From the NCBI GenBank assembly GCA_002189035.1, contig CM007992.1:992001-1056000 (forward strand): DNA of 64,000 nucleotides, given 5' to 3'. Made by a program: the position numbers and the translations under genes. Under the pieces are notes generated by a model that worked only from the letters and a program-made list of their open reading frames with translations, was not told where the DNA came from and searched no databases. Shown here piece after piece: positions 1,154-63,985 of the stretch. Within the stretch, counting starts at the first letter, position 1, and every line of letters begins with the position of its first letter. The DNA comes from Utricularia gibba (taxonomy: Eukaryota; Streptophyta; Magnoliopsida; Lamiales; Lentibulariaceae).

Positions 1154-2751
1154 ATGGAAGGTGGTGGCTCCAGCAGTGGTGGCTCTTGTTTGATGGGTTT
1201 TGGAGGAGAAAACAGTAGTCTGTTTTGGCCTCTCACCGGTTACCTTCCGCCGGCTATGATGACTAACAATAGTAGCGACCACGGGGGTGGCGCCTACGTC
1301 TTCACCGGCGGAGACCACCGTTATTTCATGGAAACTCCGGGCGGTGAACAGCTATCTTCCATCAAAGCCAAAATCATGGCTCACCCTCTCTACACCCGTC
1401 TCTTAGCTGCCTATGTTAACTGTCAGAAGGTGATCTTTTTTCTCCCCTCTTAAACATATCTGCAGAGTTTGTCTAGGAACAAGAAAAAAAAAAAAAAAGA
1501 AAGTTTGCATCACATCTTCGAACCTGTCTCAGATTGGAGCTCCGGCAGAGGCGGTGGCGCGTCTGGAGCAAGCGTGTGCATCCGCGGCGGCGATGGTTCC
1601 ACAGGGAAGCAGCAACTGGGTTGCTCAGGATCCTGCCCTTGATCAATTCATGGAAGCTTACTGTGAGATGCTAACCAAATACGAGCAAGAGCTCTCCAAA
1701 CCCTTCAAAGAAGCAATGGTTTTCCTCTCCAAAATCGAGGGACAACTGAAAGCTCTCACCTTGATACCCTCCTATTCAGGTACTAGTGAAGAAAAAATGT
1801 CCATGTTTTATATTGATTCAGATCTCGATTTGGTGTAATTGAGCTCCCATGTGCATGTTTCCAAGAAAGTTATCTGTTTTTACTTTAAAGAAAAAGCTTT
1901 GGGGGTTTTCTAAGTGTTCTGTTGCTCTACCTGCATCCTTTCCCCTTCCCCATCTCTGCAGTGTGCTTCTTCTTTACATTCCTTCAAGTGTGCCGCTATT
2001 TTTGAGACAAGTCTTGTGTCCACTGTACTCATTAATGTATGCATATTTGCCTCCATTTCCTTGTTCCTTGCTTTTGACTGCTAGCAGCAGGAAGTGATTT
2101 CTCTGGATGGTGTGTCTCCTGAGGTGCATTTTAGAATCATTCTCACCTTACTTTGCGCTGATGCTGATTTGGCTGACAGTTTGTGGTGAGGCACTGGAAC
2201 GAAACGGATCATCTGAGGAGGAGTTTGAGCTCGATGTGGGCAACAATGGCGGCTTCATCGACCCTCAAGCTGAAGACCAGGAGCTCAAGGGGCAGCTGCT
2301 TCGGAAGTACGGCGGGTACTTAGGCAGCCTGAAGCAGGAATTCATGAAGAAGCGGAAGAAAGGGAAGCTCCCCAAAGATGCCCGGCAGAAGCTCCTCGAC
2401 TGGTGGAGCCGTCACTACAAGTGGCCCTACCCATCGGTAAGGTTCTCCGGCAGCCCTCAATGGTGGTTGGCTATGGAGAGGAAGGTGACGAGTTTCGGTT
2501 GGTTTGTTGCAGGAAGCCCAGAAGGTGGCGCTGGCGGAGGCGACGGGACTGGACCAGAAGCAGATCAACAACTGGTTCATTAACCAGAGGAAACGGCACT
2601 GGAAGCCGTCGGAGGACATGCAGTTCGTGGTGATGGATGCGGCGGCGCACCATCATCCCATTTCTACATGGACAATGTGGGTGCCATGGGGAATCCCTAC
2701 GCCATGGATATCTCAGCCTCCATGAACCATCACCACCACCATCTGCCGTGA
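1154..2751 (+). CDS. STM: Class I KNOX homeobox transcription factor, SHOOT MERISTEMLESS-like
   Basis: Homeodomain transcription factor of the TALE class; family members act in the nucleus to keep shoot meristem cells undetermined. Four exons fit splice consensus and phase: 1154-1429, 1533-1779, 2180-2436 and 2513 onward. The protein has KNOX1 (about residues 70-115, across the exon 1/2 junction), KNOX2 (about 115-165), ELK (209-230, beginning [12 protein letters not shown]) and a homeodomain (about 231-294) with the TALE signature and [13 protein letters not shown]. The tail [12 protein letters not shown] is typical of STM rather than KNAT1 or KNAT2/6, so the symbol is an inference. The literal frame stops at 2725 after an unrelated tail. 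One more base at the CCC run 2657-2659 would give a family-like end containing [18 protein letters not shown] and stop at 2751, for about 339 residues. Confidence 0.9.
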
Positions 2752-4389
2752 CAACACCCTCGCCGCCTGCCTGCTATGCCTGCTACCATGTTCATGTCAT
2801 ATGCTGCTATTCAAGCCTAAGTTGCGATTGCCCCTAAAAAACTTCTGCATTCTGAAATTTCAAAGGGAAAACACCCATCAAGTTGCATGTGGCATGTCCA
2901 ATCTCACTTCAGTGGGTCATGTTTTGGGTGGATGGTTTTTGACCATAATCAAACACATTTAGAAAAACTATGAATGTATCACAATTTAATCATGATCTGT
3001 TAAACAAATATAGATATCGGAAATAACAATAAAAATTAAATATAATTATACATACGAATTCATTTAATGCAGGGAACAAGGAAACCGTACCCTTCTTTTA
3101 GCCGCATGACACGGACATCGCTGGAAGGGCTGTGTTCAGAGGGCTACTGTAGCAAGTTTGGGAACACTTCTTTCTTATCCTTTAGAAATGACCCTGGTGG
3201 TGGTAAGGAGCATCAGCAACCACAGATGGTTCACCAAAAGCTGAACCGTAGCCTGCTTTGACGAGAGCTCTTGAACCAGACTGGAGATCCGGTATACAGA
3301 AAGTCCGCAACATACTACTGTTGAGAATAGCCATGAGACAAGGAGACCAACTGCAGATCTCGGTCCTTATATCCTCGGGTAGACCAACTGCAGTCGCAGA
3401 TCTTGGTTTTCTGATTGCGTATCCGATGCACGATTTCAATCAATTGAAGGCAAGTAGATGAAGATCAAAAGCCTAGATCTTTTGATGATAGAAACTAACT
3501 ATTTCACAACTCACTTCGGTAGCTATTGACGAGCTCTTTTCTACGTCGTCTAGGTTGGCCATTTCCTCCGCTCCTCCAATATACTAACAGTTCTCTACGG
3601 AAAAAAAAAGGAAAACTGAAAATCTCAATTACAGAAACGAATTCACGACCGGAATCCCTACCTCCTCCGCAATCGGAAGGCGTTGCATCCACGTGATCTG
3701 CGTTTCCCGATCCATGAGACGGCGTTGCAGCAAGTTCCCCTATTTGCACTTCGCCTTCACCTACAACCCACGGAACTGAAGAGTGCGAAGCACTCAACAC
3801 CGCCTAAACGACGGGGCCCAAACGATAGGAAGAAATTCCGGCTCAGCAACAATTAATAATAAAATCAATAAATTGGTTTATTTATGACCTCATATACTAA
3901 TAAATACATCACATATTAAATATATTTGTGAAATTTATTTACAAATAAATAATTTAAATATACTATTAACTAAATAAGAGAATTTTTAAAAATGATACGA
4001 ATTAAATGATTTTTTTAAATTGAATTGGAGGTGCACGTGACAAACTCATTGAATTGACAGGCAATTCGCGTGAACGATGACCCCCGCCGGATTCGTAATA
4101 AATAACTGCTATCGGGACAGTCCCAACTCCCGACACGAGGACGGAGGGAGGAGGACTCATTTAAGCACATTTTTTTTAATCGAGAAACGATCGTCTTCTC
4201 AGCGGAAACGGCGGTTCATTTTATTACAGTAGAGAAGCTCCAAAACACCATAAAAACCTTAGAAGAACTTCCCTTCGGCAGTTAAACACCCTAGAACAGA
4301 ACCCTGCGTAAAAACATCAGCAACAGAGACGGAGACACACACCGGGGAACACGGAGGTTACGTCGGGGGTCGGAGTTAAAACGAACTTT
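2752..4389. other. Intergenic; unresolved GC-richer island at 3060-3830
   Basis: The first 300 bases are probably the 3' UTR of the KNOX gene. From about 3060 to 3830 the base composition is more gene-like, with open minus-strand stretches at 3182-3439 and 3504-3800. The latter opens with GTG, has no usable ATG and runs into a donor-like GTAGGG. I recognise no protein family; it may be a non-coding transcript, a decayed gene or promoter. From 3840 to 4390 the sequence is AT-rich and then the 3' flank of the phytocyanin gene. Confidence 0.35.
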
Positions 4390-5164
4390 TTAGGCGCCGA
4401 TGACGCAGCCTATCAACAACCCGACCATCATCAGCCCTTTTGCGCCTTTGACCAAGGGGGCGCCGGACGGCCGCGACGGCGGCGGGAGGTGCGGTTCTTC
4501 TGGCGGAGGAAAACTTGGCTTCACCGGAGGATCGTACGGTTCACTGGGCGGTTCGTATCTCTCGGGGGGTATGCTTCCGGAGCAGGCCAGTAAGGCTCCG
4601 GTGGGGCATGATCCGGCTTCACCGGGTCAAATGGACCGAACGGATCGGGTGGGGCCAGATCCGGCCTCACGGGGTCGAATCCAGGGCTCGGGTTCTGGGG
4701 CTCCGGCCAAAACGGGTCGAGGTCCGACTCAACGGGAACCGGCAACTTCAACCCGTTCCTACAGTTCTCCAGATTTCCGCTCACGAAGTAACGCACGCCT
4801 TCCTCCTCCAACGCCACGTGATCGGTGTACATCCTTATGGGGTTCCTCAAATCACACGCCTCGAACTCCTCCGGCCCGCGCACCTCCAAAATCGCCTCCA
4901 CCGCGCCGGAGTTCTTAAACCCTAAACCCAAAATCCACAAAATCACTCAAACAAAACACAGTATGACAAACAGAGAAAACAAAATAAAAAAATCCACTTA
5001 CAGAGCTTATCCCCGACTTTAAAAACCCGGCCAGCCAACCAAGAAGAAACGTTCATCTCAGGAACCCACCCATCACCCCCACCCACAAAGTGATGGGTCT
5101 GCGCAGAAACTCCAGCGACGGCGACCACCGCGAGAATCAAAAAAGCCCAGAAACCCGCCGCCAT
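4390..5164 (-). CDS. Phytocyanin, early nodulin-like, GPI-anchored type
   Basis: Secreted cupredoxin-fold protein of the plant cell surface. Exon 1 (5002-5164) encodes an N-terminal signal peptide (MAAGFWAFLILAVVAVAG) and the start of the domain (THHFVGGGDGW). Exon 2 begins at 4921 after an acceptor, and the junction codon gives GDKLWFKNSG. The domain runs to about residue 125 and is followed by a Pro/Asp-rich linker. The usual copper-ligand histidines are replaced (GAVEAILEV and ENCRNGLKL), so it probably does not bind copper, like many early nodulin-like proteins. The literal frame ends at 4521. One extra base in the six-C run (minus strand; 4564-4569) would open a proline-rich stretch and a hydrophobic tail ending LMMVGLLIGCVIGA, a typical GPI signal, with stop at 4390 and about 231 residues. 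The antisense frame 4400-4918 is a shadow. Confidence 0.85.
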
Positions 5165-6241
5165 AACAACCTTCGCTTGTCTCCAACACCGCCCCTGAAA
5201 AGGCTACGAACTGGGACCGAGTAAAGATGTGGGAAAAGTGGCGGGCATTAAATAAGCGGAGGGAGATGGCGTGAAGAGTAGTTGGGGGCGGAGTGGAGGT
5301 TGCAGAAACCCGAAACATTTGGAGGGTAGTCGATAACATGTGTAGGTGTACGTGGCCGTGTTCCGAGAGAAGGTTTCTGGTTAAAGGAGGACACGTGCGT
5401 CGCATTTTCACCTACCGAAAATATTTCGAATTTCACCCCAATCACCGTCTTCTGGAGAGGTACCGCGAAGTCTTTCAAGCTCCACCTTTCAAAATCAAGC
5501 CCGCCTTTTCAAAAAGCCATGTCTCAGGATTAATAATTAATTTTTGGTTTAGGTGTTAATTAAATTTTATTATAAGTCCTCACCAAAGTAAGTTTGATAT
5601 TACCAACTTAAACTAATCTCATATCATAGGAAAATAAAGGAATAAATATAGTAGAATGATTTAAGTGAATCTTACAAGAGATTTTTTTTCGACATAGTAT
5701 CTTTGATAGTAATTCTAAAGTTAAGCATATTTGATTCAATGTAATTTCATGATAAGTGATCATATAGTAATCTAATGATCAAATTTGATTAAATGTAAAA
5801 TCGCGAGAATTCAAAATTTGAAACGGATAATATTATATAAGAAAAATGTGAGTTGTAGTAGTTATTAAATTTTACATGATATGTATGATGAGAAAATTGT
5901 ATTACAAAATCAATAGTTTTAATATTCTGTTAAAATTAATCATCAAAATTTTATATATATGCATTATTAGTCTCCAAGTTTGATATATTGATATAATTAA
6001 TTTTTAATATTTTATATTTTAGGCAATTTTGTATTATTCATTGTTTGAATACTGAACACAATTTATCATCAATTATTCAAAAAGTTAGTACAATTAATTG
6101 TGGATTAATTTTATAAAATTTTTGAATAATTAAGAAACTAATAATGTCAATTATTTTAAATAATAAAGATTATTTATTTTAAATTAATGAAATTTTAAAA
6201 TATTCTGCTCTGGAATATTCTGTGATCAAACACAAGATATT
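5165..6241. other. Intergenic; phytocyanin upstream region and AT-rich spacer
   Basis: Bases 5165 to about 5530 are of mixed composition and lie upstream of the phytocyanin ATG, so they probably hold its promoter. From 5530 to 6200 the DNA is extremely AT-rich with no coding signal. I see no recognisable transposon ends. Confidence 0.5.
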
Positions 6242-7333
6242 TCAAGCCCAGATGGCCATGAGGGACATTGCTCCTGCACCCAAGAACACTCCCAGATAGC
6301 ACTTGAGTTGAAGCCTGATGCTTCCTTGCAGCTTCCTCCCCATGAAATCCGACGCCAAGAGATCCACCAGCGCCATGTAAATCAGCAGCCCTGCGGAGGA
6401 GGCGTTGAGCAGCTTCCTCCCCATGAAATCGACAACGGCAAAGAAGAACGCCATTGTCGCCCTCCTCACCAGGTTGTACTGGGCCTGTAGTCAATTCGGC
6501 GGTGAGCTAATTGAATGGCTGTTAGGGAGGGAATGATCGGTGGTTACTTGCAGGATGCATCCGCCGAGACCCATCCCTTCGAACATTTGGTGTGGAGGCA
6601 TAGAGCGGCGATCAGGCCTTTGATTGAGCAGGTGTTTGAAGATGCGCCTAGGGATAAGCCGATTACTACCGAGTGAACAACGATCCCGAGCTCCAACACC
6701 TGCAAATCTCCAGTCGGTAGTGAGTTTAATGTGGGGATTTGATTTCATGAATCTTCTGGTAAAAATGGTTGTTTGTGTAGCTACTACCATAGCAATGATT
6801 CTGTGACGGAGAACGTCCGACCCATCGGCCTCCACCATCATGGCATGTTGGTGAGGATGATGTCGATGCGCCTCGGGCGCCATTGCTGTATGATTCTGAT
6901 TGTATAAGCTTGTCGCCAGAGAATCAACCATCAGCGTGATGATGGCGGAAAATCATCGCCAAGAATCGGTAAAGGGAAACAGATGCCACGGCTTCTTCGG
7001 CAAATGTGGAGAAGACAGCATTCCGAAAGAATCAGGCAAAACATGCATGAACCCAGTAGCCAAAATGATCCCGGAGGAGAATGCTTTCGCTATGGTGAAT
7101 AACGAGCGGTCGGGGTCCAACGCAGGAACGGCGCGAGTGACTAACGGTAAGCTCACGCCGATGATGCTCGACAGAAGGATTACTGCGACGGCGATCAGTT
7201 TCAAGGGTAGAGCTTGTTTTTCGCTGGTGCAATGGGTCAGATCCGCGGCGCCTTCTTCGTCGACGACGGAGAAAACTCCGACGAATAAGTGGGAGAGGAT
7301 GAGGAAGAGGGTTAGTGCACGACAAGGAGACAT
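6242..7333 (-). pseudogene. ZIP-family zinc/iron transporter, frame-disrupted with internal deletion
   Basis: Three exons are visible: 6788-7333, 6548-6699 and 6242-6484. Intact relatives move divalent metals across membranes with eight helices. Seen here: a signal sequence, LKLIAVAVILLSS, the helix FTIAKAFSSGIILATGFMHV, TLMVDSLATSLY, a short His-rich loop (HRHHPHQH), then [20 protein letters not shown] and [14 protein letters not shown]. Lesions: an in-frame stop at 6953-6955 caused by a paired -1/+1 change within about 20 bases, a 2-base insertion near 6589-6592, and in exon 3 the loss of the conserved helix usually beginning TPFGIALG. The lost helix is replaced by a second copy of DFMGRKL encoded by an exact 22-base direct repeat (6328-6349 and 6409-6430). 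The ATG at 7333 was chosen because the longer open frame starts with TTG. It could still be transcribed; assembly error is an alternative for the small indels. Confidence 0.7.
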
Positions 7334-7617
7334 GTTCGGGATCGGCAAAATGCAGTCTTCTGGGAGCGATACTTATTCAGATCAAAGTGGCGAGCGTACG
7401 GATGAAGCATGGAAGTGCACGCGCCCCTTGAGTCAAGCGTACGCATTTGATGACGTGGCTTAGTGATTGCCATCCACGTGGATATGAGGGCCCATCCGGA
7501 TATTAGAATATATTAAATACCCGCCTTACGTTCTACATTAAAAAATATAATAGTAATTAGATAAATAATAATGATTTTCTGATTGAGCTAAACCCTATCG
7601 AAGATCATTCGTCGGAA
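7334..7617. promoter_or_regulatory. Shared divergent promoter region, ZIP and BAG genes
   Basis: Only 284 bases separate the minus-strand ZIP start from the plus-strand BAG start, so both promoters and leaders must lie here. The middle is AT-rich (around 7500-7570). I cannot assign individual elements. Confidence 0.5.
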
Positions 7618-8480
7618 ATGAAACCGTCGCTGTGGCCCGGAATTCAATTCTCCGCCGCGTCCGCTGCGAGAGTTATCTGTTCCTTGCGAACTGAACTCTC
7701 GTCGCCTGAGGCTCGCTCTGATAGCCTTCGAGTTGGGCTTCAGGAAAAAATCCTTACGAATCCTTACGGCCGCGAATACTCCGCGGCTGTGAAGATTCAG
7801 TCTGCCTATCGGTCGCACTTGACGCGAGAGCTTGTTAGGAAGATCGCCGCCGTTAATTCTGAAGCCAATTACTGGCAGGGACTCCTCCAAACTCAGGCAA
7901 GAAACCATTATTGTATTCTGCGTCTGTTCACCTTGTATGATTTCATTGCTCCAGCTTTCGTTCAATCAAAGTGTGATGCATTGTGCAATTAATATTTATT
8001 TTGGATGTTTTTGATCCCTATCCCGCACTTTCATAGACTCCCAAGAAAGTATTCTGTTGCTATTTATTGATGCACATGTAGCCTTTAGTCCTTTTTGTGC
8101 AACTCCTCAGGATTCTTAGTTTGAAACCTTAAAGATTTCTGTTCGAATCCTGGATGATACTCTAGGTGCCTGCATGCGTAGGCGTATTAAAGAAATTACA
8201 TGGTTTCATGGATCAGGAAACAGTGGATGCCGTGCGTGGTAGTGATAAGGAGCGATTGAGGATCAATGAGGGACTAATGAGGTTATTGCTGAGGCTCGAC
8301 TCTGTACCTGGGCTGGATCCCAATGTAAGAGAGCTCAGGAGGCATGTCATTAGGAGGATTGTGGGATTGCAGGAGATATTAGATGCAGTTTCAGATAGTA
8401 GGGTTCATGGGTATCTAAGATACTGGGAGGAAATGTGTGCAGAGATTGAGAGCCAGGATTGCAAGAGGTGGGGGACATGA
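7618..8480 (+). CDS. BAG-family co-chaperone with IQ motif, BAG5-like
   Basis: BAG-domain proteins bind Hsp70 and regulate its nucleotide cycle; the plant BAG5-7 group also binds calmodulin through an IQ motif. Exon 1 (7618-7896) encodes a short N-terminus and the IQ region YSAAVKIQSAYRSHLTREL (about residues 54-75). Exon 2 (8217-8480) encodes the BAG domain (ETVDAVRGSDKERLRIN through HVIRRIVGLQEILDAV). The joined product is 180 residues, a little shorter than Arabidopsis BAG5. The join needs a GC-AG intron: CAG/GCAAGA at 7897 and ATCAG/GAAAC at 8217. It keeps phase exactly and gives the conserved LQTQ-ETVDAV. Arabidopsis BAG5 is mitochondrial; targeting here is not shown. A decayed copy of exon 2 lies at 12205-12400. 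Confidence 0.85.
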
Positions 8481-8712
8481 AATGGAACGGTTTTGTGCTG
8501 AGTTTCCTCAGCGATGAATATATACATGTTACACATATACTACGCTTTGAGGTTTTGAAGCCAGGAGAAGGAAAAACAAATGAAAAAAAGAGGGTCCGGT
8601 AGTTACACTTGGATCAATGGGATAGAACATAGTTTTTATTCATGAAAACTGAAGAACACCACTGTTATTCCAAGGCAAGGAAAGGGGAAGTGAACAACAT
8701 CATTCACAGCTC

Positions 8713-10025
8713 TTAATATGTGGAGGTGAAGTTGTGGTTGGAGCATGTAGTTCCATGGCCAAGCAACGAGTGGCTGAAGCCTAGTCTTGATCGAGCAATG
8801 TCAAACTCCAACAGGGTATCCTCAATCAGAAGCGCTCCGATGACGATTGAAGCCATATCGTTATCAGTTGCTTCGGTGAATCCCAGACAAGCCACATTTT
8901 CATTCACCTGTACCAGCGAATTCAACCCTGTTATTGTCCAAGTTGGCCGATTTGCACCATTCAGTTCGAGGTTGATGTGCGGAACCAATCTGGATGCCTT
9001 TCTTATCTGGAAGCACACGTCGAATGGAGCGACAGCAGGAACCACCCGTCTGATGTTCCTGGACCGCGCCTCTTTGATGAAAGCAGAGGTCAGTGCTCTG
9101 TAAATCGAGGGATGTAACAGACTGAAACGATGCACTGTGCTGATTCTCGTCCCCCATTCCCGTCTCCTTGGAACGCAAGTAGAGTTGTGTTGATTGGGAT
9201 CTGATGGTCCCCGACGGTAATGGACCTTAAACCGATGAAGTATTGGGGAGATCTCCGCCCTAAGGTGTTTATTTCTCTACTCCTGGGGTTGACGTAGAGA
9301 GGAGTATAAGTCAGCAAGGTGGGCACTGTTAATCCAGGAATGACGTTGAAGGGGACGTTTCCGAACACTATGAGTCCTGGGTGCGCCGCAGACGACGGTA
9401 GACAGACTGCGAACCTCCTGGGAAAGTTGAATGCGGCCGCGAGCTGCAGGGGAAAACCGACTGGGGAACGGCCTAATCCGATTAGGCCGGTGGTACCAGC
9501 AGCAAGTTCAGATTGAATGCCCGTCGGACCACAAACGAAGGTGAAGTTGTGTACTACAGCCAGAGGTCCCGGATGGGATCCTTGGATGGATGCAAGGGAA
9601 ATGACGTCCTGCGCAACCTCACCGTCAGAGGTTAACACAGGGAACGGATTGGACGCAAAGGCGCTACAAGTGTTGTTATTGCATCCGGGTCCTTGAGGTG
9701 TATTGCAGGTTCGCCAACAACCGTAGTCCACCGGGCCGGCTATCCGGCAAGTGGGGGAGCCGCAGGAAGCTGCTCTGTAGGAGGAGGAGACGTAGTTGCT
9801 TGCACAGTTGACCCACGTGGTATCGGCCCCAAGATTAACTGCGAGGGTGAGTGATACAAATGGGGTTCTTTGTCGTATACGGGTGAGGTATTGGTTTGTG
9901 GATGCATCTTTGTTGACCAGGAGCGCCACCGCCCGCGGCCGGAAGGATCTCTGGGCGGCTGCCGAGCCAAGGAGCAGCAGCAAACCAGAAATGATGAAAC
10001 AGAGAAGCTTCTCTGGAGTCCCCAT
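8713..10025 (-). CDS. Xylanase-inhibitor / EDGP-like (basic 7S globulin family) protein, copy A
   Basis: Intronless secreted pepsin-fold protein of the TAXI/EDGP group, which inhibits microbial xylanases or xyloglucan endoglucanases in the cell wall. A signal peptide is visible (MGTPEKLLCFIISGLLLLLG), then LAVNLGADTTWVNC where an active protease has D-T-G. The second catalytic motif is replaced by GGTRIST, so it is a non-catalytic homologue. A Cys-rich loop (NNNTCSAF), GTTGLIGLGRS and the C-terminal NVACLGF are also present. The literal frame breaks at the five-C run 9151-9155. One more base joins both parts into 437 residues, the normal family length. A second copy lies at 12682-13996. A TATA-like sequence lies about 92 bases upstream of the ATG. 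Confidence 0.85.
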
Positions 10026-10129: not shown

Positions 10130-12078
10130 AAGCAATGGGGTGTCCGACACAACAGTGAAATGTCCTGTCTTTTCAACTTCAGCCAATCGGATTTGACCAA
10201 CGGAATCATCCACCCCAAAGAAGATCCTCAGGCCCCTGGTGCTGCTCTCGAAACCGCGGGAGGGGAACCTGCATGGTTTTAGAATCCGCTGTACTTGAAC
10301 ATATTATGGGTTCGCTTGGGAACTTTCCCAGTGAACCCATAATATGGGGACGCAAGATTCAACTTGATATGGGGAGCCAAAAACTCCACTTTCTTGTGGA
10401 TAACCTTCCACGCAACTCGCGCGTTGAGATCAATTCGTCCGGTAAGTTTGAGCGAGGTGGCAGCTTCCGACCAGGTGGTAGTGGTACACACCAAGGGGTG
10501 AGAATTGGGGAATTAGAGGAGGGGGGAGAGTTTAGGGTTTAGAGTGAAGAGAATTATTTACATTTTAACGTAAGTTTAAATATTTGTTATTTTGGGGATA
10601 TGAGAAAATATAAATTAATAGAATAATGTATTTAATGTATGAATAAAATGATTTTAAAGATAATAAGAATATATTGAAATTGAAAATTTGTATGATATTC
10701 ACAATTAAATATAATGAATTCAATTATAACCATAATAGCATCTTTATCAATATTAAAAAATGATGATATGATATTTTCGGAAATTGAGTTATTGGATTTA
10801 TTTTATTAAGTTTTCTTTATGTTTGTATTAATTTTCAGAAATCATAATATTAAATAATATTAAAATAAATAATATAAATTCTATTTTAAATTGTTTTCAG
10901 AAGAAAACCACGTTTATTTATTTCCATTTCCGTAAGAAATGAGAATCAAATATAGTGATTTTCAAAAACATTTTTCCATTTTCAGAAATGTAACATCAGC
11001 ATTTTCGAAAATGAGTAAAGATATTCTAAGCATTTTATATAATTAGAAAATAGTTACTTATTATTAAAATAATTATAATTAAGAATCCTTGAATAGTGGT
11101 GTATATTTTATGATCACAAGATTATTAAAATGAAAAATCATGTCATCGATTTTATAAAGTTATATAAGTAAGCAATAGAAAAGTAAACAATGATCCGATT
11201 TTTAGTAAGGGAGAATAATTCGAAGAAGGTAGAGTTTTTTTTAGAACTATTACAACTTTATTCATACTGTTTTCTTTTTTATTATGAAATCTTTTATTAG
11301 TGTGTGAATAATATTTTTTATTTTTTACTTATTTTTATGAGCTATCTAATAATGTATTTTATTTAAACATTATGATCTACAATATTTTTTTATAAAATAT
11401 TATTCAATTTAAATATATAATTTTCATAATTTTACATTATATAATTATAAATAAAATATCTCATACTATATTAATATAATTAATCCGTTTAAATATATTT
11501 TTTCTATTATTCGTAACTCCTATGAAATAATATCACTAGTCTCCTAGTTCGTACATTCTACTTCTATTAGATATTTAATGTTTTTGCTGAATTCCCCTTT
11601 GTCACATCATTGCTATGTGTTTGGATTTGGTTTTGATACTAAATGTTAAGATATTTTTGTAGTATATTGTTTATAGATCATTTAATAATACAAAAATTCT
11701 AAAAAATACATTAAAAACCTTCTAATAGAACTCATTTTCACATGAATTTTGATATCTTTGTTCACTATATTTTCAAAATATGCACAATAAATAAAATATA
11801 CATTAATTAAATTATAAATCCTAAAAAAACAAAGGAAAAGATATGATGAATAGCACATGTTAAAAAAAAAGATTTTATAAAGTATGAATATGTGTCATAC
11901 GTTCTCATAATATTTAATATAATTACAGTATTAATAATTCTAAACTGTGATTAATTAACTGATAAGCACTGACAAACATTCTTGTTACACATGTCGTTAA
12001 TAAAAACGAGCAGATCCGATGGAGAAGACGCAGGATCCCGCGAGGAGAGCAGAGCATGAGCAATCTCTACCGCGGCGC
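10130..12078. other. Promoter-proximal duplicate block and AT-rich spacer
   Basis: Bases 10130-10460 are the upstream part of the duplication and match 14080-14440. The plus-strand open frame 10273-10542 lies in this block and is not matched as an intact frame in copy B, so I do not call a gene. From 10546 to about 12000 the DNA is very AT-rich with no coding signal. From about 11850 it resembles the RUNKEL downstream flank at 14875-15040. Confidence 0.6.
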
Positions 12079-12681: not shown

Positions 12682-13996
12682 TTAATATGTGGAGGCGAAG
12701 TTGTGGTTGGAGCATGTGGTTCCATGGTCAAGCAACGAGTGGCTAAAGCCTAGTCTGGATCGAGCATTGTCAAACTCCAACAGGGTGTCCTCAATCTGAA
12801 GCCCTCCGATGATGATTGCAGCAGGCTCAAATGTATTTACTTCTGCGAATCCCAGACAAGCCACATTTTCATTCACCTGTACCAGCGAATTCGACCCTGT
12901 TATCGTCCAAGTAGGCCGATTTGCACCTTCCAGTTCGAGGTTGATGTGCGGAACCAATCTGGATGTCTTTGTTGTGTGGAAGCACACGTCGAATGGAGCG
13001 ACAGCAGGAACCACCCGTCTGATGTTCCTGGACTCCGCCTCTCTGATGAAAGCAGAGGTCAGTGCTCTGTAAATCGAGGGATGTAGCAGACTGAAACGAT
13101 TCACTGTACTGATCTTCGTCCCCCCTCCCCATTTCTTTGGATCGTAAGCAGAGTTGTGTTGATTGGGATCGGATGGCTCCCGACGGTAATGGACCTTACT
13201 CCGATGAAGTATTCGACAGATCTCTGCACTCCGTGGCCCATCGCATTACTCACGGGGTTGATGTAGAGAGGAGTATAAGTCAGCAAGGTGGATGATGTTA
13301 ATCCAGTAATTACGTTGAAGGGGGTGCTTCCGAATACTATGAGTCCCGGTCGTTGGTGCGCCGTAGACGACGGCAGACAGACGACGAACCTCCTGGGAAA
13401 GCTGAATGTGGCTGCGAGCTGCTGGGCAGGACTGGCTGTGGAACGGCCTAATCCGATAACGCCGGTGGCGCCAGCAGCAAGTTCAGGTTGAATGTTCATC
13501 CCACCACAAACGAACAAGAAGTTGTGTACAACAACTAGAGGTCCGGGGTGGGATCCTTCGACGGAAGCAAGGGAAATGACGTCCTGCGCAACCTCACCGC
13601 TGGTGATGATGCGACTGAAGGGATTGGCCGGAAAGGCGCTACAGGTGTGGTTATTGCATCCGGGTCCTGGAGGTCCATTGCAGCTACCCCCACAACCGGA
13701 GCCCGGGGAGGCTATTTGGCAAGCGGCGGAGTTGCAGTAAGGAGCTCTGTAGGAGGAGGAGACGTAGTTGCTCTCACAGTTGACCCACAAATGCCCGCCC
13801 CCAGATTAACTGCCAGGGTGATTGGTACAAATGGGGTTCTTTGTCGGAGACGGGTGAGGTATTGGCTTGTGGCAGCATCTTTGGTGACCGGGAGAGCCAC
13901 CGCGCGCGGCCGGAAGGAGCTCTGGGCGGCTGCGGAGCCAAGGAGGAGCAGCAAACCAGAAACGATGAAGCAGACAAGCTTCTCTGGAGTCCCCAT
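12682..13996 (-). CDS. Xylanase-inhibitor / EDGP-like (basic 7S globulin family) protein, copy B
   Basis: Paralogue of the gene at 8713-10025 with the same signal peptide, inhibitor-type fold and family motifs (GATGVIGLGRS, NVACLGF). The catalytic aspartates are absent here too. The literal sequence has two frame breaks. One is at the CCCCC run 13798-13802, where one more base would give NLGGGHLWVNC. The other is at the C run 13120-13125, the same codon region as the break in copy A. Restoring both gives 438 residues. If the breaks are real, both copies are pseudogenes; if they are assembly errors, both are intact. A TATA-like element lies at about 14063-14070. Confidence 0.8.
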
Positions 13997-30488: not shown

Positions 30489-32976
30489 GTAGAAAGTTCT
30501 ATTGCTGATCGAGGGTCTCGACACGGGGTTTATTAGAAACCGGAATACTTTTGGCTCGCTCTTTCATTTGTAGGGGTGAGTTTTCTTTAGCAACGTTTTT
30601 TCTTGAATCCTGGGAAAAAAGACTAAACCTGTACCTGCGAACTATTCTGAGGTTGCTGAAAATTTGTCTTGTTACGTAGATGCGGTGATCTTGATGTTAA
30701 GCATATGCGTTTTAAAGAATTATATGTTGGGTATTCGTAGTTTCTGAGCTTCATTTGTATTTGTTTTTGCTGAACTGGGTTAAATCTTTCAAAGGATCAA
30801 GGATGTTTTTACTTTATAGCTGATGCTGATATCACTTTCTCTGCCACTGCAATGTATTTATATGTATTCTGTGTCACGTAGAATTTTTCCAATGGATTTA
30901 AATCATCAGATGGCATCGTCAGGATCTCACTACAGCAACCATTCCCCAATGCTACCTCCACGCCAGCAGTTTCGGCCTGTAGGTGTGGGACTCCAGAATT
31001 CAGTACCGTTTGCGACACCAGATGTGGCTGAATCACCGAATCTTCATGAACGTGGTTCAAATTCAGATAGACTTCATGACTCCCGATCAGAAAGTGCCAG
31101 CTCGCGAGAGACTTGGCCTACTGCTGATGGTTTGGAAGCTAAGAAACTTGAGAAACAAAAGGAGAGGGGGAATGGTTTTGCTGAGGATTCTGTTGTGAGA
31201 CATATTTCCTGCTCGGATAACATGTCACTTCAGGATGTAGCAAGGGAAAGGGTCGAAATCATAGCAGAGAGGATGCAAAACCTGCCGGATGAGTACCTTG
31301 AAAAGTTGAAGAATGAGCTTCGAGCTGTTCTTGAAGGCTTAGGTGGCAGTAATCAAAGAGGAGAAGAGTTTCTATTCCTACAAAATCTCGTAGTGAGCAG
31401 AAGTGACTTGACTGAGAAAACATTGCAAGCTGCACACAGGGTTCAGCTAGAGATATTAGTTGCAATAAAGACAGGAATTCGGGCATTCTTGCATCCAAGC
31501 GTTAGCCTTTCCCAAGCTTCAATTGTTGACATTTTGCTGTACAAGAGATGCAGGAACATAACCTGTTGTAATCCACTTCCGGTTGAGGACTGTTCCTGTC
31601 AATTGTGTGCAAAGAGAAACGGTTTCTGCAATCTCTGTATGTGTACAATTTGTAGCAAGTTTGATTCTGAGTTCAATACATGTCGCTGGATTGGATGTGA
31701 CATCTGCTCTCACTGGACTCACATAGATTGTGCAATTCAGAATAGGCTGATTGGTATGGGTTCGTGTGTTAAGAATGGGGTCAGCTCATCAGAGTTGCTT
31801 TTCAGATGTCGTGCTTGCAATAGGACATCTGAATTATTAGGTTGGGTCAAGGATATCTTTCAGCATTGTGCCCCAAGTTGGGATAGGGATGCATTAACAA
31901 GAGAACTGGACTATGTGAGCAGAATTTTCCGTGGCAGTGAAGATTCTAAAGGCCAAAAGCTCTTTCGAAAGTGTGAGGAACTCATTGAGAAACTGAAAAG
32001 TGGTGTTGCGGAAGCTGTTCCTTTGAAGGAAATCTTAATATTCTTCCATGGTAAACGTTCTTGACTTCTCATAGTTGCACTTTTTTTTTTTCACTTTCTA
32101 GATAACGTATCCTGAATCTCAGTTGGTTGCTGGTTGTTTGCATGTATGAACTTCAAAATCTCAGGAAATACCCCCCCCCCCCCCATCTTTTATCAGTCCA
32201 CTACCACTTTAAGTTGTGGTTTCTATAGTTATAAGAATCAAGGGTGATAAAAAATGCCTACTCATCACTCACGTCTTTTTACTTTTTTTTTTTGTTTGCT
32301 TGGCAATGCTCACTACGCTGTTTTATAGTACTGATCCTTCTTGTAATCTAATATTTCCTTTATGATATGTCCTCTACACTTGGCTCTTAACACAGAACTG
32401 GAGGCAGATAACTTTATAAAGCTTGAGAATGGTGAAGCTGGAAAAATGATATCTCCACCCGAAGCATTTAACCGGATAGCCGATGTTGTTCAGGAAGCTG
32501 TGAACAAAATGGAAATCGCTGTGGAGGAGAAGATGCGGATGGTAAAAAAGGCGCGAGTAGCTGTGGAGGCATGTGAGCAAGAGCTCAGGGATAAAGCCAG
32601 AGAAGTTGCTGCCCTGAAGTTGGAGAAACAGAGAAAGAAGATACAGGTAGAAGAGCTCGACAGCATCGTGAGACTTAAGCAAGCCGAAGCTGATATGTTT
32701 GAGCTCAAGGCAAATGAAGCACGGCGAGAGGCTGAGAGGTTGCAGCGAATAGTCCTTGCAAAAAGTGAAAAGATGGAAGAAGACTACACCAGCAGGTATC
32801 TAAAGCAAAGGCTACAGGAGGCTGAAGCTGAGAAGCAATACCTATTCGAAAAACTCAAGCTTCAGGAGACTTCAAGGACATCTCAGGGAAATGGAGAAGC
32901 CAGTGATCCATATAGCAAAATCCAGGACCTGCTAAAGAACATGTATGATTCAACACTACCAAAACCAGATGCATGA
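30489..32976 (+). CDS. OBE1: OBERON PHD-finger protein (OBE1/OBE2-like)
   Basis: OBERON proteins are nuclear PHD-finger factors needed for meristem establishment in the embryo. The coding exons are 30892-32050 and 32396-32976, giving 579 residues with exact phase. The start at 30892 (MDLNHQMASSG) was chosen on the known family N-terminus. A leader intron at about 30489-30881 is inferred (donor CAG/GTAGAA, acceptor GTAG), so the coding part begins later than this entry's start. The Cys-rich PHD region spans about residues 220-315 (CCNPLPVEDCSCQLC, FCNLCMCTICSKF, GCDICSHWTHIDCA, LLFRCRACNRTSELLGW). The C-terminal third is a long coiled coil (from about residue 400) rich in K, E, R and A. The OBE1/OBE2 choice is not resolved. 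Confidence 0.93.
32169..32184. repeat. Poly-C run in the OBERON intron
   Basis: About 14 consecutive C bases lie inside the intron between the two coding exons. It is the longest G/C homopolymer in the window. No function is evident. Confidence 0.9.
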
Positions 32977-49617: not shown

Positions 49618-51099
49618 TCACTGTTTAATAAAATCAGGTTGGTTTGTGATGGATCTGACCCATGCCCATTCGTGGTCTTTGGTGTTCACCACGTTCTTTG
49701 CACGCGCCACCTCCTCCACCGGAATGTAAGCGTATACTCCGTTGATCCGCCCACTAACAAAGCCTGTGTACCCGGCCATCGCGCCGTGGACGGCGGAGTG
49801 AGCAAGAAGTGTGCAATATAAATTATCGATGGCGTTCGCCGGAACGGCGCGTATCATATACGTCGGATCGATGTATTTCACCGTGAAAAGCTCTTTGCCG
49901 TGCTCCCTTTTCCACCATTTCTTCAATTCGGATCTCAGCCACGCGCCGACGTCGAGGAAAATGGGGTTCCCGGATTCGTCCTTCTCCTGAACATTCCCTT
50001 CCTCTGTTTTCGGAATGACATCCTGGCCGGCGCCCTCCGCCACTACCACGACGGCGTGGCCATAATCCTTCAAGCGGCTGTCGAGGAACTCGAAAAGTCC
50101 GCCGCCGCCTTCGAGGTAGAAATCGATCTCCGGGATTAAACAGCAATCGACGTCACGGCTGCTGAGGGTTGCGTGCAGAGCGATGTGGCCGGAGCTCCGG
50201 CCCATCAGTTTCACTAATCCGATTCCATTGACGGCGCTCTCGGCTTCCGTGTGGGCGGCGCTGATTGCCTGTTGGGCTATCTCCACTGCGGTTTCGAACC
50301 CGAATGATTTGTCGATTATCCCCACATCGTTGTCCACCGTCTTCGGTATCCCAGCAACGGCGATGTTTAGTTTCCGGCGAGTTATCTCGCCGCATATTTC
50401 CAGCATTCCTCTCATTGTTCCATCTCCTCCGATTATATACACCTGCAGTCCGGCACAAACAACCCATCACTCACAAACCTCAAACGAATGAAAAGAAATT
50501 CACAAACTCTAGGGATCTCAAAAGCACCTGGTTGTATCCACGGTCCAGAATCCCATCAACTATCTTGTGAAGATCAAAACCTCCTCTAGAAGTTTCTAAA
50601 ACAGTCCCACCTCTTTTGTGCCAACTATGAACCATTTTAGGATCAAGCTCCACCGCCTCGCCGGAGTAAAACCCCGGAAACCAGCCCGGATACCGAATAT
50701 CTCACGGACGCCATAGAGATCCCACAGCCCAACCACAAGCTCTCTGATGACAGTGTTCATGCCGGGGCAAAGACCGCCGCACGTGACTATCGCGGCCCTC
50801 ACGTGACTCCCCTGAAAGCACACCCGCCGCCTTGGCCCCGCGCGGCAGTACGCGTAGTGAGGCGGTGCCGGAGCACCGACGTCATGGAGAATGTGGCGGA
50901 GGACGACCTCGGAAGAGGCGACGTAGAACTCGGAGGCAGGATGGAAAAATGGATTGTTTTCGAGAGGATTTAGGTGGGTTTGGAGATCGGGGAAGTGATC
51001 GGAAAGATGAGGGAGTCGCCGGAGTATGAAGCTTCCGATGCCGAGGTCACCCTCCTGGACTGTTATCGCCATTTCTTCCTGCTTGCTATTTTTGCGCAT
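49618..51099 (-). CDS. ATP-dependent 6-phosphofructokinase, plant cytosolic (PFK3-like) type
   Basis: Phosphorylates fructose 6-phosphate in glycolysis. Exon 1 is 50528-51099 and exon 2 is 49618-50442, with an 85-base intron. Motifs are [28 protein letters not shown], the catalytic [22 protein letters not shown], and [19 protein letters not shown] near the end. The literal exon 1 frame breaks in the AAAACCCC block 50668-50675. One added base restores [15 protein letters not shown] and leads in phase into exon 2, for about 465 residues. Without it the protein would be truncated before the ATP-binding GGDGT. Two ATGs are possible (51099 and 51072); no plastid transit peptide is evident. It converges on FPS with 178 bases between the stops. 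Confidence 0.9.
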
Positions 51100-55078: not shown

Positions 55079-55424
55079 CCTTGGACCATTCTTCAGAATC
55101 GCCTGTTTGTGATGAGAATCAGCCAGGTGGATGCCATCAGCAGCAGGTGATACTGCATTTGTGTGTGTAGTTTGTGAACATAGGCTGCAGATGTATTATA
55201 ATTCAAGGATGTGATTGATGATGATGATGATGCTTGTCCTCTGGAGAACGGATGACCTTTAATTTAGTGGTTGCTGGCATTTTATTCTATGGCTGCGGTA
55301 AGTACCAGTTAGATCCAATTAAGGTTGTAAGGAAACTTTTTGGGAAATGTCATGTGAAGTTGTAGGTGAACTCCGGTCAACAGTAAAATTTAGGGGTATT
55401 ATAAAAGTGATTATTATCTTTTGA
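55079..55424. other. 3' UTR of the PHL7-like gene
   Basis: A transcribed-looking flank with a small GAT microsatellite (55218-55232). No other gene is visible. Confidence 0.5.
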
Positions 55425-55894
55425 GTGCGTGTTTGGTTGTTGGGTTTGGCTTAAACATAGGTTTAGTTTATTTGGGTTTAGATAATCCGATTTCATGGGT
55501 TTAAAGGATGAAATCCGTATTTGGTTGATGGGTTTAGGTTATTTGAGTTTAGGATGAATACATGTTTGGTACGTAGGTTTAAAATTGGGTTTATAATGAT
55601 TTTCATATGAAATTATCAATATAACTTTTTAGTTAATTAAAATAAATTATCATATATTTTATTTTTCTATATCATTTTATGAGTTTAATCTTGCATCGCA
55701 TAACATAAATTACAGTACTTAGTTGAAATTTTATTTTATAACAAGCATTGAGTAATAATAGACACGATGTTTATCTTCAAAACGAAAATTCACATTTACA
55801 GTAAGCACCGGATAATAATGGACGCAGCGCTCGACTTCAAAACGAAAACTCACATTCAGTATCAAAAATAAAAACCCAGAATATTAGACATGTT

Positions 55895-56030
55895 GTTATT
55901 ATTTTTATTTTTATCTTTTTCTTTGTTTTCATTTTTTTCTTCTTTATTTTCTTCTTCTTATTCTTTATCTTCTTCTTCTTCTTTTTATTCTTCTTCTTCC
56001 TTTTCTTCTTCTTCTTCTTCTTCTTCAACA
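55895..56030. repeat. TTC-rich pyrimidine microsatellite
   Basis: About 135 bases of almost pure pyrimidine on the plus strand, with TTC and TTTTTC units, inside the MITE-like element. The Lys-rich and Ser/Phe-rich open frames over it are artefacts of the repeat. Confidence 0.85.
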
Positions 56031-56310
56031 GATTTGAACAGATCTAAACAAATCTATTACAAATCTGAATAAATATGCTACAGATATGTAGGAATTTTAA
56101 CTTTAAAAAAAATTGGTAAATAGATTTGTGCATCTGGTTTCTGATAAATCTACGTTCAAATATGGTTCACGTGAGAGCAAAAATGGAAACGCCGAGATGG
56201 ATTTAGTTAAACCGACCCCCTCCCTTGGGTTTAGCTAAACCCAGCTCCATGGGTTCCCACCTTGTTTATGGTCAAAAGGTGGGTTTATTTTTACCCACCT
56301 GAAACCCACG

Positions 56311-56416
56311 AACCAAACGTGGGTTTAGATATAAACCCACGTCGCAACCCACCTAAACCTAGCAACCAAACGTGGGTTTAGACATAAACCCACGTCGCAA
56401 CCCACCTAAACCTAGC
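56311..56416. repeat. 53-bp tandem repeat with internal palindrome
   Basis: Two adjacent near-identical 53-base units (56311-56363 and 56364-56416), each beginning AACCAAACGTGGG. They differ at few positions. Each holds a 10-base inverted repeat, CGTGGGTTTA and TAAACCCACG, separated by four bases. The array abuts the right terminus of the MITE-like element. Confidence 0.85.
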
Positions 56417-56993: not shown

Positions 56994-58445
56994 TTACCGG
57001 CAGCCGCCGTCGGCGAAACCAATTCTCGAGCTGGCGATGTCATAGACGATGTCGAAGGTCTGCTGTTGCTGGTTTCCGATGATGGTGACATCATCAGAAT
57101 TCGCGTTGCCTGCGAAAGACAAACAAGTGGTTCCTGTTTTCACTTCGTAGATGATGTTTCGTGGAGACAGATTCAGATCTGCGCCTCCGTCGAAGATGAT
57201 CTGGACCGGAGGAACCACTGCAGAAATCTCCTCGAATGTTCCACTGAAACAAGCGTCCAGAATCGAGATCGCGCCGGTGGAATGGAATTTCGTGGAGATG
57301 ATCTCGACGAGCGCTGCTCTAAGAGCGGAGTAAACGGTTGGTGGGAGGCGAGTTATGACGGTGCCTGAATCGATGATTGTGCGGCCATTGTACGCGTTTC
57401 CGACTGCTAGAGGCTTACCGGAAACCGTAATCGCCGATATTCGGAGTAAGTACAGCGTCGTGTCTTTCGAATCGGTTATCATTGGGGTGAATTTGTAGTC
57501 CCGGCCGGAGCCTCCGCCGATTGAGAGAAATCCTCCTACGCCGTTGTCGCTCGTTGGGAGGCAGTAGGAGAAGGCGTAATTGTATCTATTGGAGAGCTGC
57601 GAAACTAGGGATAATTCGTTCTTCGCTAGGCCGAGAAGTCCGGCCGATCGGCCGAACAAGCCCTCGTTATCCTGGCCGCAACCGAAGATGAATCCGGATT
57701 GAGATTCTCCGCCGAACCCGAGCGAATCTTGGCTCAAATACCCAATGGAGTAGCTCCGATCGCCATACGTTGCCGTGTATAGGCAGCCATTGGAGGAAGT
57801 GCAAACGCCGTTATTGAGAGTGGCTTTTTGGAGAGAAGAACATTGCCCGGAGTCACAGGACATCCGCCGGTATGTGGCGGATGCCGATGGATCGAAAACC
57901 GCTCCCGCCTGATCGTGACAGTAGATAGCACAGGGTTGGCATTGGATCCATGAGAAGGAGCTTCCTGTGTCGACAACAACCAGATGATAACTAGCCGGAG
58001 TTCCAATCCCGATCTTGGTGTAATAATTCCCAACTCCGATACTGCTACCGGGGTTCACTGGAGCCCCAACCGACTCCAATTTGGTTTCACTTCCTGTTCC
58101 TGAAGTATTAATGCTGTGGCCTCCAGAAAGCCTGAAGTTGAGGAACTTCACCCGGGCTTGATCATGGTCAAAAACAGCTTCCAATGACTCCTCCTGCGGC
58201 CTCTCTCCCCTGGGATGATACAAAGGCAGGTCCAAAGTTGTTGCTGATGATGCCCTGAAACCGGATCCATCTGAAACAGAGAGTCATGAAAAAAAAAAAG
58301 GTGAGTATCAAGATTAAGCTGTATGAAGATGAAATGACATTATGAGCATGCCAAATCTATGATTCCTGGTCGCATGAGCAGTGCATTCCAAAAGTAAAAT
58401 GGCTGCAAATGCAGTGCAGCAGACGAAGCACATGATCTTCCTCAT
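56994..58445 (-). CDS. Nepenthesin-type aspartic protease (A1B family)
   Basis: Secreted pepsin-like protease of the plant-specific nepenthesin group (At5g10770/AED1-like). The main exon runs from about 58272 to the stop at 56994. It contains the first catalytic motif VVVDTGSSFSWIQC, the nepenthesin-type Cys-rich insert (QPCAIYCHDQ, CSSLQKATLNNGVCTSSNGC), YGDRSYSIGYL, the second catalytic motif TIIDSGTVITRLPP and the end TIIGNQQQQTFDIVYD. Both catalytic aspartates are present, so it should be active. The open frame has no ATG. An upstream exon starting at 58445 (MRKIMCFVCCTAFAAILLLE, a clear signal peptide) is the likely first exon, but its donor site is uncertain. Residues after the acceptor at about 58272 (GSGFRASSATTLDLPLYHP) form the propeptide start. 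Confidence 0.85.
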
Positions 58446-59865
58446 TCTTCTGCTACAACAGCTTATTGAGTGTTAGTTGGTATTGGTACCACAACCCTGT
58501 AGGAGATTAAATTCGAGGGGAGGCGTTGGCTTTTAGCAGTTGATGAAGCTAATTGAATGATGAATACACACTTCTCGTGGTGGTTGCCATGGAGAGAGCT
58601 GGATGGGACAGCACTGAGGTGGTTACAGTGACCCCATATGTCCCCCTTTTTTTCTCCAAGCTTGAATGCAGATGCACATAGCCGCTTACGCAAGTTGTTT
58701 GTTTTTATCTGAACACTTCCACTAGCTCTTCGCAGGCTCCTTAACCCCAATGGAAGAAGGCGGATCAAGTTGCTGATGCCCAAACAAACAAAGCAGCACA
58801 CTTGGAGAAGCAGTTGTGGTTTGCTGTTATTTGGTAATCAGCATTAATGTATTCTTTCAATGAAATCTGTTCATGTGTTTCATTAGCTTTAAATTAAAAA
58901 TATAATATGATTCTTAATTTTCCAGGACATTCAACCTTCGTACACCGTACATCCGTTCCAGGAATTTGGAACATTGTTACACGGTTTGTACAAACACACC
59001 ACGCCAAAGCAAGATAATTACAATAAAAAAAAAAAAAAACACACACACACACACACATCACATCATCACCATCTCAAAGCAACTGTGTTCGGGTTTGGTT
59101 GGTTGTATTTAATATTTTAATAGGGATATTAAATGATATATACATATATAAATGAAATGAAACATATTTAATTGATGAAGTATATGAATAATTTTATTTT
59201 TTATTAATAAAATAAGTATAACATAAAAAGTGAAAAAATTGGTATATATTTGATTAGATTCACAATTATTTATACGATATTATTTGTTTCATATATTCAA
59301 TTTTTATAATTTTCAGGATTTTTTAGATAATCACTCATTTTGAAATTATCTGAACTAAATATTAAGCTTAAGCTTGGAAATCCTATCAATAAATTTCCAA
59401 TCTATTGATAAAAATATCTCATATAAAATTTGTAAAATTATTCTATTTAATTTTTTCGTTTTCTTTCATATGTAACCTAAATGAGATTCGATTAAGGTGA
59501 TTATAACACCCTTCTTTGGATGGGGGCTTAATATCCAATTCTAACTTTAATTTTTCATAAATTTTATTCTGTTTGTCAAATATTATAACGGTATTTTATT
59601 CTTTGGAATTTTTATATGCTCTACGATGGGGTTTGTAGTTATCGCCAGAGGAGCTGTTTTCTGCAATTCATCGAAAATTCCTTCATGTTTTTTTTTTCTT
59701 TAAAATTTAGGGTGAACGAAATTTTTCATTAATTAATTATGTAGCATGCATAATAATATTTGATTTTAATAATATACTTTTATCTTTGATAAATAGATGA
59801 AGTCAAGATAGCCAGGTTTAGGGCTACAATACGACTCCCTTCGGAAGTAGCCGTGGGGTTTAGGA
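58446..59865. other. Protease promoter, microsatellite and AT-rich spacer
   Basis: Bases 58446 to about 58830 have mixed composition upstream of the protease. An A run followed by a CA repeat lies at about 59026-59056. Bases 59100-59800 are AT-rich. The last 60 bases are the leader of the CCCH gene. Confidence 0.55.
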
Positions 59866-62800
59866 ATGTCGAATCAGTTATACGGTTACGCCGGTGGGGT
59901 TACGGTGGAGGAGGAGCTGGCACTAGCAGTCTCTATTCCTCTCGATCGGCGGAAAACACTGGCGAATCATCATTTCTAGGTATTTCTTCAAGGTACTTGA
60001 GTCTGGACTCTATCACGCCGTCCGCCCTTTCTTCTTCCTTGCTGTATGTTCCGGAGAGCTACTCTGTCAGAATTCCCGGCATCACGACATCCGCGCACTC
60101 GTATGACCTTCCTGAAGTTGATGTTGGCTCCACTATTGCTTCCATCGACTCGCGGTATGCTGGGTGGAAGCGCAATACATCCGAATGTAAGGACCATTTC
60201 TTTTTTTTTTTTTTTGTAGCTTCGATGTTTTCAAATCGTCTCCACCTCTCTCCATTGTATTTGTGAAAACTTGTAGTTTTTGGTCAGTGCCTGCCTATTT
60301 GTTTATTTGTGTTTTGCATCTCTACAATATAAATAGAATTATCCATCATTTGGTAAGTGCGTCGCACTTGAAATCATGCAATTAGTAGTAGTGGATGTCC
60401 CACTAGTGCAGCCATCGAGCTTGTGCAAACATTATAAGGATTATGAATTTCTTAGAGTCCGTATGCTATCCAGGTGGGTAAGCGGATTACTTAGGAGTCA
60501 AAGAATAATATATTTTTTTCTACCTTGATGGTGTTGAGCTCAGCTACCATCGAGAACTTTTGATGATTGACACTGCGTGATGAGTTATACCTTTCTCGAG
60601 TAATGTACCACTGTATATATGTGGGATACTTAATACTTGGGTGTAATTGCGAAATATGTGAATCTGTGTGCTGTATATGTTCTATACAACCTGGAAGCCA
60701 GTAAAATTCTACCTGATTTTCTATATCATGTAAGTATTTACATAGTACTCATATTTTGGATTTCTTGTTTTATTGTCTACGATATATCTAGTAGTCTATG
60801 AACCAACCCCTTTGGGTACCCAAATGAAGATTGGGCAAACTGAAGCCTGGTATTCGACAGACCTTATAGACAAGCGCCCTAGATATGAGAGTACTAGCCA
60901 GTTGCCCATTTATCCTCAGCGGCCTGGAGAGAAAGACTGTGAATTTTATATGCAAACACGAACTTGTAAATTTGGAGATAGCTGCAAGTTTCACCATCCT
61001 ATTTGGGTTCCAGAAGGAGGAGCTCCAAATTGGAAAGAGGTGATGCTTTTCAAGCTTTTCTAGTAGTATTCCTACATTAAGTTCTGAACCTTCCTTGTAT
61101 GCAGGGATCATTATTAGCATTTTTAGGTTCATTTGGTTTTATCTCGATAATATATTACACTGAAAAGTATATACTATTATTTTGCCGCTTTTTCTTATAG
61201 CTTTTATGATATATGATGAGTTGGCCATGAAAGTTACTGTACTCGTCTTTTCTGGGTATGTATATGCATATTCTTTCTTCACGTCCAAAGCAAGAAGAGA
61301 GAATGATTCAGAATGAGGCAAAACATTGTCATTGAGAAGCCTGAAAGCTGGGTTTCGGATTGAATTGATACGGGAATTCAGATTTAAATTACAACTTTGT
61401 TATGGTTTTTTCTTTGAATACTAGGAACATGGGAATGCGTATCATAGTATATATCCAATTCTATCGTTCAGATGATTTCATAATCTTACTGTCTATCCTA
61501 CCCCTCTATATTTTGTCGTGTTTCTCGATTAGGTAAAAGCGACCCTATTGTGGAAGTTTTTTCGTAGCTATTACTACCGATAAGATCTCATTCTATTGGT
61601 TTATGGTTGTATTGTTGTTGATTTTTCCCATCCTATGCTAGTGTCCAAATATCTTGACCGGTTGTTCTTTGTTGGAAATATTCTGTAAGGTATTGTATAT
61701 GTAGATTACTCTGTCTTGAAATGTATGGGCATGTTGAACTGACTGGATAAGAAATCCCTTAGTTTTGCAAGGTTTTCTCTAAAGGAAACTCGTGAATTAA
61801 TGTGCTTCTTGATGGTTGATTTGTCAAATGGTGGTCATGCTCCTCACTTTTTAACTGTACCTGGAACCGATAATCTTGTTCATCTAGCATCTTTTTCAGC
61901 TTGGCGCTTTCATAAGGTGCTCTATTTCTATTTCTGTTATTTTCCTCACATTGATTTTTTATTGTGAAGGTCCCATTTGCGCCTGTTGAATCCCTTCCCG
62001 AGAGACCTGGAGAGCCAGATTGTCCAGTAAGTTGAATCCAAATGCTTTTTGTGAACGTTTCTAGGAGCCAATATCAAAATATGTTTTATTTTCTTGATTG
62101 CAGTACTTTCTAAATACCAAAAGATGCAAGTTCGGTAGCAGGTGCAAATTCAATCATCCTAAGGATTTAGGTGTGCTGCAGGTGAGACTTTGGGATGACA
62201 ATCTCGCATCCCTAAACTATCAATGTTTCACTGGATGATGTGATCCAGTCCTGAAGGCTTATGATTTACTTTCAGGGAGGCCTTGAGGATTGTCCTTCCT
62301 CTTTCTTGCCTGAGAGACCAACTGAACCTCAATGTGCTGTAAGATTCTTTCCAAAAAGATCTCATTTCAACCTGAAATGAATGATTAAGTAGGGTGTGTG
62401 CAATCAGTTCTATATGAAGACTGGGAGTTGTAAATTTGGTGCCACTTGCAAATTTGACCATCCTAAATGCGTGCAACCACAATCGGATGGAGATGAAAGC
62501 GGCACACTCGGGCATTACAAAGTACCTGGAAATACAAAGCCAATTGATCTGTCTGTTTCCCCAGCATTGACTTATAACTCAAAGGGTTTTCCAATCCGAT
62601 TGGTAGGTGTCAATGGTTGGAAAAGTGCTATGTGAGGATTTGAACTTTTGTTCCTTGATATTTCTGATCCCTACTTTCTTGCTTCTGTTGCTCAGGGAGA
62701 AGAAGATTGCCCTTTCTACTTAAAAACTGGCAGGTTTGGTTATCCCCACTATCTTATAATAGTTGTTCCCAAATTCATGATGCACGTATACCTACTAAAG

Positions 62801-63985
62801 TAATTGCTTCCTAATATGTTTTTCTACTAAATCAGTTGCAAGTTTGGGGCTACTTGCCGCTTTAACCATCCAGACAGATATGGTATGTAGGCTGACCGTC
62901 TATACTTTTTTTATGTTCTTTTCCAGTCTGTCATTATTTTCACCAACCATCAATCTACGTGCATCAGCTCTCACACCTGGTCATCTAACTTCACCCTCAA
63001 CGAATTTTAGTATCAATGTTCCAACTGCTTCCTTGTTGTCAAATTTTGATCCCAGGCTGACACAGGCATCGACAAAGTTGGTACTTTTTTCCGTTTCTTA
63101 TCCATACGTTTGGTAGCTAGCTGATCCTCAACTCCCTTCACATGCCACTGAAGGGATTTTTTCTTTAAAGTGCTTATGGTTTCAGTTTTATTATCAATGT
63201 TTGTTTATGCTTGTCTTTTTTAATCTAATTTTTTTTTATTGTAAAAATGGTAGCACCATCTAGGGCCATTTGTTGCATTTATGCAGCGTTATTTTTATGT
63301 GACAAGATTTTTAGAATGATTTCCACTGCATATAATGCTGAGTATCTTTTTTCTTCTTAATCTTTTACAGCTTGGGTTGGTGCCTACGATTTATCCTCAG
63401 CGTCCTGGACAAACTGAATGTGATGTATGTACATTTACACCCTGGACCCCCTTCGATCCTCATTTTTCAGTAGTAAATCTGCTAAAGATAGAGTTTTGCT
63501 ATGCGTGTTCTCAGCCTTGAAACATCTGTTTCCGGCAATTTTACATATTTATGTACTTCCTTGATTTTGGAGTTCTTCACCCATGCGTTTCTTTTTGCAG
63601 TATTACATGAAAACCGGTTCATGCCGATTTGGGGGTAGCTGCAAATTTCACCACCCAATTGACCGATCTGCACGCAGTGTATCCACTACAGCACATCAAA
63701 TGGAAAACGTAAAGCTTACCCTGGCAGGACTTCCAAGACGAGAGGTAGTACTGCCTTAGCATGTGCACTATGGATGGATGCATAGCTTGCTCTACATTTT
63801 TTTGGCCTGGAAGCCAGTCTCTGTGCTCTGATCACCTTTTTATAGGATGCAATACATTGCCCGTTTTACATGAAGACGGGTACGTGCAAATACGGCGCTA
63901 CGTGCAAGTTCGATCACCCGCCCCGGGAGAGTTGGTGGCATTAGCCACATCCAAGAGCAGTGCTCGTGAAGAGATTGATGGTTGA
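59866..63985 (+). CDS. HUA1: CCCH zinc-finger RNA-binding protein, HUA1-like (six fingers)
   Basis: HUA1 is a nuclear RNA-binding protein that promotes correct AGAMOUS pre-mRNA processing in flowers. Twelve exons are inferred: 59866-60186, 60792-61039, 61970-62026, 62104-62181, 62276-62338, 62408-62602, 62696-62733, 62836-62882, 62968-63080, 63371-63424, 63601-63744 and 63846 onward. Six C-x8-C-x5-C-x3-H fingers follow one another: [40 protein letters not shown], then similar units in exons 5-6, 7-8, 10-11 and 12, the last ending [12 protein letters not shown]. The pattern of six fingers with PQRPGEKDC matches HUA1. Two frame breaks occur at G/C runs. At 59896-59899 one more G links [11 protein letters not shown] to [13 protein letters not shown]. 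At 63921-63924 one more C changes an early stop (63942) into [13 protein letters not shown], with stop at 63985. Confidence 0.9.

Follow-up and report, generated by a model that had tools for sequence, protein, structure and literature searches.

PacBio consensus sequences produced with HGAP/Quiver are known to lose single bases in homopolymers, with 561 such losses counted in one genome of ~3.2 Mb (PMC4888979). In that genome, Enterococcus faecium ATCC 700221, the consensus came from PacBio reads alone, the deletions amounted to about 1 per 6 kb, and Illumina reads served to confirm them and to correct most of them (PMC4888979). Gene-fragmenting long-read errors have also been reported from other genomes (e.g. 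Kastor, PMC12007338), where frameshifts make whole genes appear truncated or pseudogenised. A PacBio assembly of Utricularia gibba was built with HGAP (contig N50 3.4 Mb; PMC5793159) and includes the 6.8 Mb unitig_8 (PMC8333044); in a limited literature search we found no published report of such errors for the assembly of this species.

Here we analyse a window of 64,000 nucleotides from U. gibba, located on contig C4 (992001-1056000) of a genome sequence that comprises 100.09 Mb and 516 contigs. The window contains a series of frame breaks at short runs of G or C, which are very likely consensus errors of an assembly made from long reads only; the platform and software, which we infer, are most likely PacBio and HGAP/Quiver. 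As in E. faecium, single bases appear to be lost in homopolymers, and as in Kastor-type reports, whole genes look truncated, at a density, in the genes examined, of about 1 break per 4 kb of coding sequence. Unlike in E. faecium, where short reads settled the matter, the losses are deduced here from protein frames and from redundant contigs, and they show a clear bias towards G/C runs. The type of artefact is thus already known and involves no new biology; its practical value is that of a warning to annotators, who may call working genes truncated.

Frame breaks at G/C runs in six genes

The frame breaks of the window are the following (strand is that of the gene):

2657-2659, plus strand: KNOX1 homeobox gene, CCC, break near the C-terminus, downstream of the ELK domain
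4564-4569, minus strand: phytocyanin-like gene, CCCCCC, break in the proline-rich tail, downstream of a Cu_bind_like domain
9151-9155, minus strand: EDGP copy A, GGGGG at the break
13120-13125, minus strand: EDGP copy B, GGGGGG, break homologous to that of copy A
13798-13802, minus strand: EDGP copy B, N-terminal part, GGGGG, second break
50668-50675, minus strand: ATP-dependent phosphofructokinase (PFK), GGGGTTTT at the break
59896-59899, plus strand: HUA1-like CCCH zinc-finger gene, first exon, GGGG
63921-63924, plus strand: HUA1-like gene, past the last CCCH finger, CCCC

Read on the forward strand and in this order, the runs are CCC, GGGGGG, CCCCC, CCCCCC, CCCCC, AAAACCCC, GGGG and CCCC. 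All eight were found where the initial annotation had placed them, in six genes as it said, although its tally of seven sites falls short of the eight that it listed; the defects do lie at G/C runs, but the runs as written measure 3-6 bases rather than 3-7. The base missing from PFK may be either G or T.

Three-frame translation shows that the family protein resumes in the frame predicted by the loss of one base. The claim that one added base restores a family protein holds for six sites, where the frames of relatives agree, and is weaker for the phytocyanin tail and the HUA1 N-terminus. The halves of EDGP copy A match residues 1-269 and then 266-413 of carrot EDGP (3vla), those of copy B residues 42-269 and then 266-413, so that in each gene the halves meet within four residues, and the Pfam TAXi_C match is divided at the same break. 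At the second break of copy B, the upstream frame follows copy A up to NLGA and the downstream frame matches 3vla from residue 42. In PFK, both halves match 2hig, PF00365 matches lie on either side of the break, and four paralogues read unbroken over the site (GGYRGFYS/A). An unbroken KNOX1 paralogue at C413:3170200-3171200 runs on as MDAA...NVLGNPFAMNVSA, in agreement with the shifted frame. At the 3' site of the HUA1-like gene, the shifted frame yields HPPPGE, the finger tail known from HUA1, and reaches a stop about 20 codons on. For the phytocyanin-like gene, the sole support is that the C-terminus read in the shifted frame is hydrophobic; for the first exon of the HUA1-like gene, it is an ATG in one frame and a long open exon in the other, within a variable N-terminus. 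Two of the eight sites fall in poorly conserved protein regions, which counts against an artefact.

One sign of frame break, specific to G/C runs, throughout the genome

Profile searches of the whole genome with the KCS, GRAS, HSP70 and TAXi_C domains showed many genes of these families divided into overlapping matches in differing frames. About 70 loci were then realigned with a frameshift-aware profile method, setting aside any break that lay close to an intron or where the alignment was weak. Among the 30 clean breaks in GRAS, KCS and HSP70 genes, spread over many contigs, 26 belong to the one-missing-base class and 4 to the opposite class; the initial proposal of a same-sign defect in unrelated genes is thereby borne out well beyond the window.

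For each of the 26 breaks we computed the interval of possible positions and compared it with random placement in the same genes. Runs of at least 3 G or C touch 23 of the 26 intervals (7.8 expected), runs of at least 4 touch 14 (2.4 expected) and runs of at least 5 touch 7 (0.7 expected); three breaks have no G/C run at all. A/T runs, on the other hand, are not enriched at the 26 intervals. The dependence on length is steep: based on GRAS and KCS coding sequence totalling 91 kb, the frequency of loss inferred for each true run length is 0.14% at 3 bases, 1.9% at 4 and ~10% at 5-6, reaching 5 out of 5 at 7, figures whose overall level is approximate because some GRAS loci were picked for looking split, while the length dependence is less affected. 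A Gly-Gly-Pro-Pro motif shared by GRAS paralogues illustrates the effect within one protein context: it is broken in all three paralogues with observed runs of 5-6 and in one of seven with a run of 4, and in none of the 28 with shorter runs. A single motif is disrupted only when its codons happen to spell out a long run. In-frame stops are almost absent, with a single case, in the copy on C414, in ~99 kb of aligned coding sequence.

In the homopolymer spectra, which cover this genome alone, runs of at least 7 G or C thin out. Within the window, 14 consecutive C occur at 32171-32184, and all other G/C runs have at most 6 bases.

Redundant contigs as a direct comparison

Some loci occur twice in the assembly, small contigs repeating parts of large ones. 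Across the 9.9 kb covered by four redundant contig pairs, there is a single substitution between the copies, while their indels total 44 bases. Since alleles or paralogues would mostly show substitutions, as consensus errors need not, a difference made up of indels points to consensus error. The indels are mostly bases absent from one side, many of them at G/C runs (GGGG/GGG, GGGGGGG/GGGGGG, CCCCCC/CCCCC); one pair additionally shows clustered losses in an A/T-rich stretch. In two pairs, C316/C412 and C414/C422, one contig carries a broken copy of a GRAS gene and the other an intact one, and the lone in-frame stop of C414 is absent from C422. A duplicated HSP70 gene, on C241 and C304, is identical over 1.7 kb, break included, and so does not help to decide. 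The redundant pairs involve small contigs or contig ends, which probably had lower coverage than the window.

Overall, C316, C236, C234, C241 and C422 (loci L044, L087, L088, L073 and L053) are nearly or fully identical to parts of large contigs, and the assembly thus holds redundant sequence; C234, C236 and C241 measure only 31-35 kb.

The systematic under-calling of G/C homopolymers that had been suspected from the window alone is strongly supported at the scale of the genome: it has one sign, is specific to G/C and depends on run length, and it can be seen between redundant contigs. Consensus calling from noisy reads would drop one base from runs of G or C, the more frequently the longer the run, and the lost base would put the coding sequence out of frame, so that an intact gene may appear truncated. 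A genome search for the eight window sites found no redundant contig covering them, hence we infer that they share the genome-wide artefact from the family evidence together with the genome-wide pattern.

Alternative explanations

The least improbable alternative, although itself very improbable, concerns only the EDGP genes: the break common to the tandem copies A and B would be a real mutation predating their duplication, leading to a shortened EDGP or to read-through, while the other sites would be artefacts. What suggests it is that a homologous G run is broken in both copies, and that dN/dS between A and B is 0.79 after the break; yet the ratio is 1.11 before the break and therefore does not discriminate. 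The 145 codons past the break, moreover, are open in both copies and align to the last residues of carrot EDGP, and long G runs are failure points of this assembly everywhere.

We consider it very improbable that the breaks in general are real one-base deletions, in pseudogenes decaying after genome duplications and through slippage at G/C tracts. Slippage does favour homopolymers and, like under-calling, increases with run length. Decay, however, would produce indels of both signs together with nonsense mutations, whereas we observed the 26 to 4 imbalance and one in-frame stop, itself missing from the redundant copy; A/T runs have no excess, and two GRAS genes are intact in a redundant contig. 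The window does contain an apparently decayed gene, a ZIP transporter on the minus strand (6195-7372), in which comparison with the paralogues on C98 reveals mixed-sign indels, a gain of two bases and the loss of a membrane segment. Judged from these sequence differences, it looks like a true pseudogene, apart from the eight sites; its pattern of mixed-sign indels is missing at those sites, and it should thus not be grouped with them.

That the breaks are unrecognised introns, with no base missing, has a near-zero probability: many apparent KCS breaks do fall at introns (and were excluded from the counts), but in the EDGP, GRAS and HSP70 genes no residue is lost across the breaks, where the two frames overlap or directly adjoin, which leaves no space for an intron.

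Consequences for gene loss in U. gibba

Under-calling at G/C runs, the reading we retain, affects what can be concluded from the assembly: taken as it stands, it would lead to about 18 calls of truncation or loss among the 65 GRAS and KCS loci that we examined. As the small genome of U. gibba is studied for gene loss, the artefact inflates the apparent loss, and claims of truncation drawn from the assembly therefore need to be checked against reads or transcripts.

Such verification exists for the truncation of DCL3, which its authors tested by RNA-seq and 5' RACE (PMC8333044). In our genome search, Dicer_dimer exceeded the cut-off at three loci only (C244:2027168, C3:1250835 and C255:2646411), a distribution that agrees with the N-terminal truncation published for DCL3. 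The idea that this truncation might be the same artefact found no sign in the Dicer_dimer search.

Two dispersed repeats were also observed in the window. One, of ~300 bp at about 10730-11030, has more than 30 copies with 73-82% identity. The other, of ~950 bp at 55416-56372, is present in more than 20 copies on many contigs, with 74-90% identity, and is probably a transposable element.
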